This document shows, piece by piece, positions 18,476 to 21,236 of a stretch of 34,057 nt of DNA (position 1 is the first letter of the stretch; every line of letters begins with the position of its first letter). A program made the position numbers and the translations under genes. This DNA comes from Pseudomonadota bacterium (GTDB lineage Bacteria > Pseudomonadota > Alphaproteobacteria > Rhizobiales > Pleomorphomonadaceae): the NCBI GenBank assembly GCA_018262505.1, contig JAGSYV010000093.1, positions 1 through 34,057 of the forward strand, written 5' to 3'. Under the pieces are notes generated by a model. It made no database searches, was not told where the DNA came from, and worked only from the letters and a program-made list of their open reading frames with translations.

Positions 18476-19759
18476 TCAGCCGGCCTGCGCCTGGTTCTGC
18501 GCCTCGGGCGACATCGGCACGCCGAGGCCGTCGCGCTGGTAGATGTCGTCACGGAACTCGACGGTGTTGTTCGGCGTCGCCCAGGCCGTGATGTACTGGA
18601 AGTAGAGCGGCACCGGATCTGCCACCGGCGCGTCGATGCGTTCGCCGGACGTCAACGCCTCGGTGATGCGGTCCTTCGGCCAGTCGGGCGTATTCTTCAG
18701 GATCCAGTAGACGTACTCGCGAACGTTCTGAACGCGCACGCAACCCGAGGAATGGAACCGGTCGTTGCCGCCGAACAGGCCCTTGCTCGGCGTATCGTGC
18801 ATGTAGACGCCTTCCGGTGACGGGAAGTCGATCTTCACCGTGCCCATGGAATTGAGGTCGCCGGGTTCCTGACGGAACATGTAGTTGACCGCCTGATCGG
18901 TTTTCCAGTCGATCGACTGCCAGGGGACCTCGGTGCCCGAGCGCGGATCGAAAGCATGAATCTTCTGCCGGTCGAGATAGCTCGGGTCCTTCTGCATCTG
19001 CGGGATCAGGTCCTTGAGGATGATGCTCTTGGGGACCGTCCAGTAGGGGAAGAAGCGGATGATGGTGATCTTGGTGTTGAGAAGCGGCGTCTGGCGGTCG
19101 ATCTTGCCGACCACGCCCCGGTGCCGCGAATGGACGGTATCGCCGTCGATGGTTTCGATCTCCGCGCCGGGGATGTTGACCATCACGTAGCGGTCACCAT
19201 TGCCGCCAAGCGGGTTGGGCAACGTCTGCAAGCGGACCAGATTGAGCTGAAGCTGCTGAATGCGCGTCTCCACCGGCACGTTGAGCTGACGCAGCGTCGC
19301 GTCATCGACAACACCGTTGGCAATGATGCCATGGCGGGTCTGGAAGCGACGGACGGCGCCATCGACGAACGTGTCATAGGCGGTGGACGAGCCAGCGCTT
19401 TGATCGAGATCGCCGGTGATCATCAAACGCTGCCGCAGCGCCGCGACAGTTGGACTTTCCGAGCCGACACGGAGCGCACCGCCCGCCGGAACCTGTGGCC
19501 AACCGCCCTGCGCGGCGATGGACGAATACTGTGCGATGGCCTGATTGGTAAACAGCGCCGATTGGCCAGAGATCGACGGCCGAGTCGACTGCGCCGAGAG
19601 ATCAGCGGGAGCGGACGTGTCAAACCCTTCTGTCCATTCCGTCTGGGCCAGCAGTGTCTGGGCCTTCGAGGCGGAAGCCGCCAACGCCGTCATTCCGGCG
19701 ATGCCAGCCTTGAGCACCCCGCGGCGACTTGCCGCCATCGACAAAAAAGATCCCTTCAC
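18476..19759 (-). CDS. Tat-exported L,D-transpeptidase of the YcbB type
   Basis: This is a periplasmic peptidoglycan enzyme expected to form 3-3 crosslinks or attach proteins to meso-diaminopimelate. The N-terminus carries a twin-arginine signal (SRRGVLKAGIAGMTALAASA) ending at SKAQ. A peptidoglycan-binding-1 repeat follows (SESPTVAALRQRLMITGDLD ... VRRFQTRHGIIANGVVDDAT), then the YkuD catalytic domain with MHDTPSKGLFGGND and HSSGCVRVQN; the catalytic Cys is residue 340 (codon 18740-18742). I chose GTG 19759 because GGAG lies 7 bases before it; ATG 19738 is the alternative and both give the same Tat signal. Genes of this type next to ldtR are called ldtP in Liberibacter and Sinorhizobium relatives, and ldtR lies 738 bases upstream here. 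Confidence 0.92.
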   Translation of the reverse strand: MKGSFLSMAASRRGVLKAGIAGMTALAASASKAQTLLAQTEWTEGFDTSAPADLSAQSTRPSISGQSALFTNQAIAQYSSIAAQGGWPQVPAGGALRVGSESPTVAALRQRLMITGDLDQSAGSSTAYDTFVDGAVRRFQTRHGIIANGVVDDATLRQLNVPVETRIQQLQLNLVRLQTLPNPLGGNGDRYVMVNIPGAEIETIDGDTVHSRHRGVVGKIDRQTPLLNTKITIIRFFPYWTVPKSIILKDLIPQMQKDPSYLDRQKIHAFDPRSGTEVPWQSIDWKTDQAVNYMFRQEPGDLNSMGTVKIDFPSPEGVYMHDTPSKGLFGGNDRFHSSGCVRVQNVREYVYWILKNTPDWPKDRITEALTSGERIDAPVADPVPLYFQYITAWATPNNTVEFRDDIYQRDGLGVPMSPEAQNQAQAG

Positions 19760-20018
19760 GACCGCACTCCAGATCGAAACGTTCGGACGCCGGCAAATCG
19801 GGCAAGAGCGTCTGAAACCCAGACCAATGGACACGACCTGGGTTAACGGAGCCTTTCCGGCAAATTCCCGCACAAACGAAGCGCCCGCGGTGGACTCGCA
19901 TGACAGCTTCAATGGCCTGCCGTTTATCGGCAATTCATGGCGAAATCGAGGACTATAAATACCTCTTCCCGTCGTGCAGGCCAGACCCGATCAAACGGCA
20001 TGGCAACAAAAAGACGTG

Positions 20019-20130
20019 AAAAGGCCCTGGGCGCAGGAGGGCGCTCAGGGCCAAGTCGCGCGTCTCGGGAGGAGTTGAGACGTTCGAAGCATCCGGTCTC
20101 AGGAAAGGGGAGGAAGCATTCCAACCGACA
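20019..20130 (-). ncRNA. Candidate small RNA with anti-Shine-Dalgarno loops
   Basis: Read on the minus strand from about 20130 to 20019. First comes a weak GGAA/TTCC stem around CTTCCTCCCC (about 20122-20102). Next is a perfect 6-bp hairpin, CGTCTC/GAGACG, with loop AACTCCTCCC (20082-20061). Last is a 12-pair stem (GGCCCTGAGCGC / GCGCCCAGGGCC, one G-T pair, 20052-20023) with loop CCTCCT, followed by TTTT, which is a typical Rho-independent end. The exposed CCUCC sequences resemble the multi-loop alphaproteobacterial sRNAs called alpha-r14 or cuckoo RNAs. The 5' end is not defined. An alternative is that this is the structured leader or attenuator of the L,D-transpeptidase mRNA, whose start lies 260 bases downstream on the same strand. 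Confidence 0.55.
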
Positions 20131-20163
20131 TGCTCGATACACTTAACATATGACATCAAATTG

Positions 20164-20179
20164 TTAAAAAATAGTTAAC
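20164..20179 (+). promoter_or_regulatory. CtrA-type binding box
   Basis: TTAA at 20164-20167, seven bases, then TTAAC at 20175-20179 is an exact match to the TTAA-N7-TTAAC box bound by the cell-cycle regulator CtrA in alphaproteobacteria. It is about 35-45 bases upstream of the candidate sRNA and 400 bases upstream of the L,D-transpeptidase start. Binding is inferred from consensus only. Confidence 0.5.
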
Positions 20180-20250
20180 GCCCCAGAAAAGACCGTGTAT
20201 CGGCATTCACCTTGATGGGCACTTCATGCGGATATTATCTGTTTCGAAAT

Positions 20251-20275
20251 GTCCATGTCAGATTTGACAGTGGAC
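20251..20275. promoter_or_regulatory. 10-bp interrupted palindrome, possible operator
   Basis: GTCCATGTCA at 20251-20260, four bases (GATT), then TGACA, one unpaired G, and TGGAC through 20275. It lies between ldtR and the L,D-transpeptidase gene. As MarR-type regulators bind palindromes of about this size, an LdtR site is a reasonable guess, not a demonstrated one. Confidence 0.35.
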
Positions 20276-20367
20276 CGATGGATATTCAAACAACATTCGG
20301 TGCGTTGACTTTCGCCCCCTTCTCATCCCGACTTTTCGCATGACGACTTGAGGCGCTCAAAGCAAAA

Positions 20368-20393
20368 CGGCCACCGTTGGTGCACGGCGGCCG
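20368..20393 (-). terminator. Intrinsic terminator of ldtR
   Basis: On the minus strand CGGCCGCCG pairs with CGGTGGCCG (nine pairs, one G-U) around an 8-base loop and runs into TTTTGCTTT. It lies 105 bases past the ldtR stop, so the L,D-transpeptidase needs its own promoter between here and 19760. Confidence 0.75.
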
Positions 20394-20497
20394 CTGCCAA
20401 AAGTGTAGAGACAGAAGGTCCGACAGTCCAAGAGCGCCCCGAAATCAGACGATACTGACTTCAGAATTCCGTGTCGCGGCGCGCCTCGAAAGTCGCT

Positions 20498-21013
20498 TCA
20501 CAGCCGATAGAGGATCTGGTCGGTCCAGAAGCGCTCCAGCCGCTGCAGCGACTTGTTGAGCACCTTGAAATCGTCGCGGTTGATGCCACCGACCGTCTCG
20601 ATCGAGATGATGTGACGGTTGTAGAGCTTGCTGACGATGTCGGCGATCGCCTGCCCCTTATCCGTCAGCTTGACGCGCACCGAACGGCGGTCCATGCGCG
20701 AACGCTGATGGTGAATGTATCCCATCTCAACCAGCTTCTTGAGATTGTAGGAGACATTGGAGCCGAGATAGTAACCGCGCGTCCTGAGTTCGCCGGCGGT
20801 CAGCTCGCTATCGCCGATGTTGAACAGCAGGAGTGCCTGAACGGCGTTGACGTCGGTGCGGCCCGAACGGTCGAATTCATCCTTGATGACGTCGAGCAGA
20901 CGGCGGTGCAGACGCTCGACGAGGCGGAGCGCCTCGAGGTAGAGCGGCTGCAGGCCCTGCTCTTCTTCGGGCTCGGTGGCGTAAAGATCATAGGCGCGCT
21001 TGGCGTTGGCCAT
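20498..21013 (-). CDS. ldtR: LdtR, MarR-family transcriptional regulator
   Basis: This is a 171-residue winged-helix regulator. I chose the start MANAKRAYDLY (21013) with GAGAGG upstream; the frame extends to 21070. LQPLYLEALRLVERLHRRLLDVIKDEF forms the dimer helix, VQALLLFNIGDSELTAGELRTRGYYLGSNVSYNLKKLVEMGY is the helix-turn-helix, and RMDRRSVRVKLTDKG is the wing. The sequence to the end (RLERFWTDQILYRL) is close to what I recall for LdtR of Liberibacter and Sinorhizobium, where it controls an L,D-transpeptidase and osmotic-stress tolerance. The adjacent downstream L,D-transpeptidase gene fits. The palindrome at 20251-20275 is a possible target. Confidence 0.92.
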   Translation of the reverse strand: MANAKRAYDLYATEPEEEQGLQPLYLEALRLVERLHRRLLDVIKDEFDRSGRTDVNAVQALLLFNIGDSELTAGELRTRGYYLGSNVSYNLKKLVEMGYIHHQRSRMDRRSVRVKLTDKGQAIADIVSKLYNRHIISIETVGGINRDDFKVLNKSLQRLERFWTDQILYRL

Positions 21014-21236
21014 GGTGGAAAGCCTCTCTGTCGTACTTTTTGGATGCGGCTCTTTGTCCGCCTTGATCACGACAGTAGCCGAGAGCTTTGGGCTTTACGC
21101 CTCAAAAAGGGCAGTGCCAGCAGGAAATTCAGCGAGAATCCGGACAATTCGACCTAGTTTTCATCGATCCGACTCTGGTCAAGAATCCCAGTTGAGACGA
21201 ATTGGCAAATTTTACGCAATAACTCTTTGTTGACCT

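Follow-up and report, generated by a model that had tools for sequence, protein, structure and literature searches.

A candidate anti-Shine-Dalgarno small RNA behind a CtrA-type box, upstream of an L,D-transpeptidase gene in Pleomorphomonas

The minus strand of the window (the whole 34,057-nt stretch of DNA analysed here, from a genome of the genus Pleomorphomonas, with Oryzibacter) very probably encodes a small regulatory RNA upstream of an ldtP-type L,D-transpeptidase gene, with loops that by their sequence could occlude ribosome-binding sites on other mRNAs. The reading that we favor, and regard as reasonably probable, is that of an anti-Shine-Dalgarno (anti-SD) sRNA, probably controlled by CtrA, that would work in the manner of NfeR1 and sX13. 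Known anti-SD sRNAs of alphaproteobacteria are tied to stress and nitrogen control in the accessible parts of PMC7143759 and PMC10746234; if the CtrA-type box described below functions, this class of RNA would be linked to a cell-cycle regulator. The CtrA link is open to direct testing, as the bacteria can be cultured and the set of copies is small and well defined.

The proposed sRNA gene (20019–20137, minus strand) comprises three hairpins and a short U-run at its end; its 5′ boundary, near 20137, is inferred from conservation and lies slightly beyond the interval 20019–20130. Hairpin 1 (20084–20137) carries CUUCCUCCCC in its loop (CTTCCTCCCC on the minus-strand DNA, 20116–20107), on a stem that is altered in diverged copies, and hairpin 2 (20061–20082) reads CGUCUC-AACUCCUCCC-GAGACG (loop AACTCCTCCC, 20076–20067), with six stem pairs that are invariant among 13 distinct copies. 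Hairpin 3 (20019–20052) is terminator-like, with a CCUCCU loop (CCTCCT, 20040–20035) and a UUUU end; an earlier reading of this DNA from the sequence only had described a 12-pair stem with a TTTT tail, of which the tail is present and the stem proves to be 11 pairs plus an A·C mismatch. The gene upstream, on the same strand, encodes an LdtR-type MarR regulator (20498–21070; Pfam) and is followed by a terminator-like hairpin (20366–20395, minus strand) within a conserved block. Downstream, also on the minus strand, lies ldtP (18476–19738; YkuD and PG_binding_1 domains, assigned by Pfam and synteny), whose start codon is our choice. Between ldtR and the sRNA, a palindrome, TGTCA-N4-TGACA (20256–20269, no strand assigned), is found in the own genome and 10 close relatives (L001–L011), and a short conserved block, AATGCCGATA (20198–20207; mean column identity 0.95), sits between the palindrome and the box.

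The 126-nt strand from 20135 to 20010 folds with −49 kcal/mol (z = −4.05), an energy equalled by none of 200 shuffles, and the C-rich-loop hairpins that the sequence-only reading had placed on this strand are borne out by the sequence and by the fold. A terminator scan of 19800–20500 listed a single site, the hairpin after ldtR (20395–20366), where shuffles expect 1.1; the last stem of the sRNA, with its run of four U, is absent from that output. Clustering of the anti-SD motif was rejected as evidence, since dinucleotide-shuffled versions of the window contain three CCTCC within 130 nt in 95 of 200 cases, although the window itself has just this one such cluster. The sRNA stands above chance because of its fold, its column conservation, and covariation with the loops kept.

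In terms of distribution, the sRNA lies immediately 5′ of ldtP in 13 of the 14 genus genomes (own counted) and in G014, of another genus. A DNA search matched 12 of 60 genomes (the own plus 11 of the genus's 13 other members), and a model, R1, built from 12 copies with G008 and G014 left outside, matched 14 of 120: the own, 12 of the 13 other genus members, and G014, with scores of 41.9 bits for G008 and 34.5 bits for G014. In G001 the best R1 match reaches 21.4 bits (E = 0.04), no LdtR match was found, and no LdtP match is better than 3e-39, so that the ldtR-sRNA-ldtP region seems to be missing there. Mean column identity among 11 genomes, the own included, is 0.91–1.00 over 20147–20018 and 0.45–0.65 over most of the spacer 20497–20278, a contrast that holds on the upstream side only, as the 280 nt between the sRNA and ldtP are largely conserved too. 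The comparison bears out the RNA that the sequence-only reading had proposed ahead of the transpeptidase gene: it is conserved, carries anti-SD sequences in its loops, and ends in a terminator-like stem.

All three of ldtR, sRNA, and ldtP stand together in 11 genomes (own counted). In G007, ldtR is separated by a contig break and by a gene for collagen-like Gly-x-y repeats from the sRNA (L012, L025), which still adjoins ldtP on its upstream side; in G008, ldtR is the last gene before a contig boundary, with the sRNA 5′ of ldtP on another contig; in G014, the sRNA is with ldtP and ldtR is distant (C6:314481 versus C6:1049638). Among 16 further loci (L138–L153, drawn from 60 genomes with LdtP matches), no exact TTAA-N7-TTAA box was found in the 800 nt 5′ of ldtP and R1 scored low, at most 23.2 bits (L140), followed by 17.9 bits (L139); 17 loci outside the genus (L026–L042) have no box 3′ of ldtR. 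A pattern of box plus two anti-SD loops yielded seven matches in 84,980 genomes, six in Pleomorphomonas and one in Oryzibacter.

Compensatory stem changes around constant loops, which the sequence-only reading had proposed looking for in relatives, are present. The alignment holds 14 matches, 13 of them distinct, and was fitted to the model and hence is biased toward it; 95.7% of its cells pair, and two-sided change is seen in 17 of the 35 pairs. None of 500 shuffles reaches any of the five measures used, and slid structures show two-sided change in 1–6 pairs. In 14 of the 17 two-sided pairs the change comes from a single sequence, in two from two sequences, and in one from five. Stems 1 and 3 covary; the pairs of stem 2 never vary, so covariation is neutral for hairpin 2, neither for nor against it. 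Hairpin 2 retains UCCUCCCGAGACG, TCCTCCCGAGACG, and the loop TCCTCCC in 14 of 14 copies, and loop 1 retains CTCCCC in all 14. The CCUCCU loop, favored by the sequence-only reading and rejected here as the main seed, is in contrast the least conserved, with CCTCC in 9 of 14 copies; the middle loop would take that role.

The CtrA-type box, TTAACTATTTTTTAA (20164–20178, minus strand; TTAA-N7-TTAA), does not appear in the sequence-only reading. It is the single match of its pattern in the window, with none in 100 shuffles, and it occupies the same place before the sRNA in all 14 copies, exact in 12 and with its first half kept in every one; in G004 and G011 the second half is TAAA. The variant TTAACCAT is found in 9 of 14 copies, and loop 2 follows the box by 90 nt in 11 copies, by 92 nt in G007 and G008, and by 97 nt in G014. 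Published motifs for CtrA include both TTAA-N7-TTAA and TTAACCAT, with activating sites near −35, according to the available portion of PMC6180460, and CtrA-type motifs, some atypically spaced, were computed upstream of several LDT genes in Agrobacterium, as given in the accessible part of PMC11527210. The own genome encodes a CtrA-family protein that scores 425 bits against the NCBIfam CtrA model (cut-off 350); among 14 control genomes, one has a match above that cut-off.

A candidate −10 region with GTTAAG (20138–20152, minus strand) is proposed from conservation and inference, and the −10 element beside the box is poor; a better σ70-like site lies ∼100 nt farther upstream. The promoter scan returned the alternative promoter-like site CTGACA-16-GATAAT (20234–20261, minus strand), whose TGACA falls within the conserved palindrome and whose second hexamer varies among relatives. 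Closer to the downstream gene, 9 of 14 copies have TTAACCA ∼106–115 nt 5′ of ldtP (L125–L134; own: TTAACCCA, ∼19838–19847), so that this gene may have a candidate CtrA-type half-site of its own.

Across the own genome (5.28 Mb, 89.85% complete) the box motif occurs at 22 places versus 16 for the backwards control. Fifteen of the 22 sites were viewed as loci and 20 adjacent proteins were scanned, 9 of which have no Pfam match and several no known cell-cycle role. A tandem pair of boxes, 35 bp apart, lies just 5′ of a URO-D (hemE-type) gene (L086/L087, G000:C32:15109–15158), an arrangement that we take to be reminiscent of the Caulobacter origin; this site is possibly the replication origin region. 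Another box site stands beside a protein that exceeds the Flg_bb_rod cut-off and one that falls just short of the FliO cut-off (21.5 bits against 22), and a further one lies between a zinc-ribbon gene and an ABC gene that we infer to be ftsE-like. A looser pattern run over 297 genomes of the order gave seven matches, six of them copies of the sRNA and the seventh a DUF1127-type alpha-r14 locus in G017. In that genome, of another genus of the family, a TTAA-N7-TTAA box, TTAAGCCTTCGTTAA, stands 5′ of the alpha-r14 hairpins (L065, G017:C1, ∼1749088–1749102), beside a small protein called DUF1127 by eye.

The genome-wide count, barely above its control, and the presence of another promoter-like site upstream would also suit a real anti-SD sRNA in which CtrA is uninvolved and the box is bound by another protein (a response regulator, LdtR, or a MucR-like protein) or is a mere A/T-rich part of the promoter. 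LdtR sites are inverted repeats with A/T-rich ends in the accessible part of PMC5481520, which is in keeping with such a role. The exact N7 spacing in 12 of 14 copies, the published CtrA variant in 9 of 14, and G014, which keeps the box and the sRNA without an adjacent ldtR, argue against this explanation, however; we hold a box that serves something other than CtrA to be somewhat unlikely. As for the CtrA-controlled sRNA itself, the genome motif count that hardly exceeds the control, the short U-run, the poor −10 element, and the better promoter-like site farther upstream weigh against it.

The position of the element, on the same strand and directly 5′ of ldtP in the copies examined, even without ldtR, would be expected if the ldtP mRNA began with a structured leader or an attenuator, with the terminator-like stem read through under some condition, and the conserved DNA between sRNA and ldtP and the short U-run of the own copy point the same way. 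Yet the ldtP start is ∼280 nt away from the stem, and the loops remain anti-SD-like in diverged copies. The sole alternative fold considered, the two-state switch of the sequence-only reading in which GAGAC would compete for the GTCTC of the middle hairpin, is not conserved, GAGAC being present in 5 of 12 aligned copies. A leader is on these grounds improbable, although leader and trans-acting roles could coexist. A small protein encoded at the locus is very improbable. Two of the sense frames do stay free of stops among the 11 close copies (own counted), and one of these has 6 of its 11 variable columns at third codon positions, but across the 14 copies every sense frame is interrupted somewhere (one by stops in G008 and G014, a second in G007 and G008, and the third in many copies including the own), and insertions and deletions within the last loop change the reading frame while pairing stays.

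Under the favored reading of an anti-SD sRNA, the locus would produce a stand-alone, trans-acting RNA of ∼115–120 nt. Phosphorylated CtrA would bind the box near −35 and set transcription of the sRNA, and the loops, chiefly UCCUCCCGAG of the invariant hairpin 2, would pair with G-rich ribosome-binding sites and block the start of translation, as for NfeR1 and sX13. The fixed site before ldtP, a gene for cell-wall crosslinking, would link the sRNA to a common cell-cycle or envelope programme. The best predicted targets are messages for ABC solute-binding proteins and a zinc-type dehydrogenase, and the accessible part of PMC10746234 reports ABC-transporter mRNAs as targets of NfeR1.

The 10-nt complement of UCCUCCCGAG occurs 2–9 nt before an ATG in 14 of 14 genus genomes, with 49 matches versus 2 for a backwards control in which SD strength was free to differ. 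The pattern CTCGGGAGGA-N2-9-ATG precedes, among the 14 genomes, the gene for a Peripla_BP_4 sugar-binding protein in 10 (9 of them confirmed at the protein level), an ADH_N/ADH_zinc_N dehydrogenase gene in 8 (6 confirmed), and the gene for an SBP_bac_1 solute-binding protein in 6 (5 confirmed), the Pfam identity of each gene coming from one scanned member. G004, G007, and G008 have none of these three recurrent targets, though hairpin 2 is kept. Because the sites include the Shine-Dalgarno core, their recurrence is in part no more than the usual conservation of translation starts. As a baseline, 0.8 Mb of G012 contains 651 predicted genes, 50 of them with GGAGG start sites; the comparison is rough because 25 of 82 Pfam families are listed, among which periplasmic-binding-type domains have three members and LacI regulator domains two. 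In this sample the longest hairpin 2 match, 11 nt, belongs to the one predicted target that it chanced to include, and the next, in three genes, is 9 nt.

The ribosome-binding site of ctrA, AAAAAGGGGAT (L099, G000:C96, minus strand near 2172–2190), is complementary to loop 1 of the sRNA. It is found in 13 of 14 genus genomes, the own included (G013 lies outside the sample), and the 8-nt match between loop 1 and this site holds for the 11 close sRNA copies. A fuller scheme, in which CtrA would drive pulses of the anti-SD sRNA that shut down sugar-uptake messages while loop 1 (UCCCCUUU) pairs with AAAGGGGA of ctrA and so closes a feedback, is doubtful. The ctrA feedback on its own is speculation because G007 and G008 keep only the CCCC core.

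No Rfam family reaches its gathering score in the window. A lax search of 401 bases returned sX13 (31.9 bits), ar14 (31.0), CcsR1 (24.6), and Atu_C7 (21.8), with E values of 0.0002–0.004 for 401 bases; the sX13, ar14, and Atu_C7 matches span nearly the entire RNA and that of CcsR1 covers hairpins 2–3. All lie below the gathering scores (sX13 RF02232, 50; alpha-r14 RF02344, 58.8; CcsR1 RF02791, 65.3; Atu_C7 RF02501, 45), and formal membership in the four families was rejected. When applied to 11 relatives, the alpha-r14 model gave 29.0–33.8 bits in 10, with none at gathering, and L012 has no alpha-r14 match among those listed. The likeness to alpha-r14/cuckoo RNAs suggested by the sequence-only reading thus survives as architecture (three hairpins, anti-SD sequences in the loops, ∼120 nt), whereas membership does not. 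The available parts of PMC7143759 and PMC10746234 describe alpha-r14/NfeR1 of Sinorhizobium meliloti as having hairpins with anti-SD loops and predicted ABC-transporter targets. Unlike those RNAs, the sRNA has the full nonamer CCUCCUCCC in none of its loops (CUUCCUCCCC, AACUCCUCCC, and CCUCCU); the alpha-r14 promoter CTTAGAC-N17-CTATAT matches at best 8 of 13 positions in 20130–20340, with the CtrA-type box found instead; and where alpha-r14 stems are highly variable, stems 1 and 3 vary here and the middle stem is frozen.

Other anti-SD RNAs resemble the sRNA in part. Anti-SD hairpins are common to it and to the CcsR1–4/CIN1-type RNAs (RF02791), which occur with DUF1127 genes, but the sRNA is one RNA with its own box and forms no array; a DUF1127 motif scan of the window in six frames gave three poor matches, none convincing. 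The sX13 RNA of Xanthomonas, the top Rfam score here, comes from another class of bacteria; it has three stems with C-rich loops and represses mRNAs with G-rich motifs near their starts independently of Hfq, and no CtrA box is mentioned for it in the accessible part of PMC3771888. CcnA of Caulobacter crescentus shares a CtrA box upstream and a C-rich loop: in the available portion of PMC8959179 it is putatively CtrA-activated and its CCCC loop acts near ribosome-binding sites, but its gene lies at the replication origin and not at ldtP. No description of the present combination was found among the literature matches listed, from a search that left most subscription papers outside.

The alpha-r14 model also matches elsewhere in the own genome, once over cut-off (64.9 bits) and once under, both on G000:C248 beside a DUF1127 protein; because that locus lies apart and accompanies DUF1127, the RNA of the window is a second, separate anti-SD RNA of the genome. 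A further alpha-r14 match, at C99 (34.5 bits), was discarded, as it resembles a common terminator at the end of a coding region. The own DUF1127 and anti-SD locus (L060, G000:C248, ∼490–850) contains the CCTCCTCCC motif four times, whereas nine of the 10 other DUF1127 loci of the genus (L050–L059) contain it eight times and the tenth seven times; its DUF1127 end and last stem also deviate, and the shortfall in motifs reflects a deletion or an assembly fault. The sRNA and this locus have TGTCGGTTGGA in common; TCGGTTGG is absent from the other loci displayed, and a similar linker is seen in L056.
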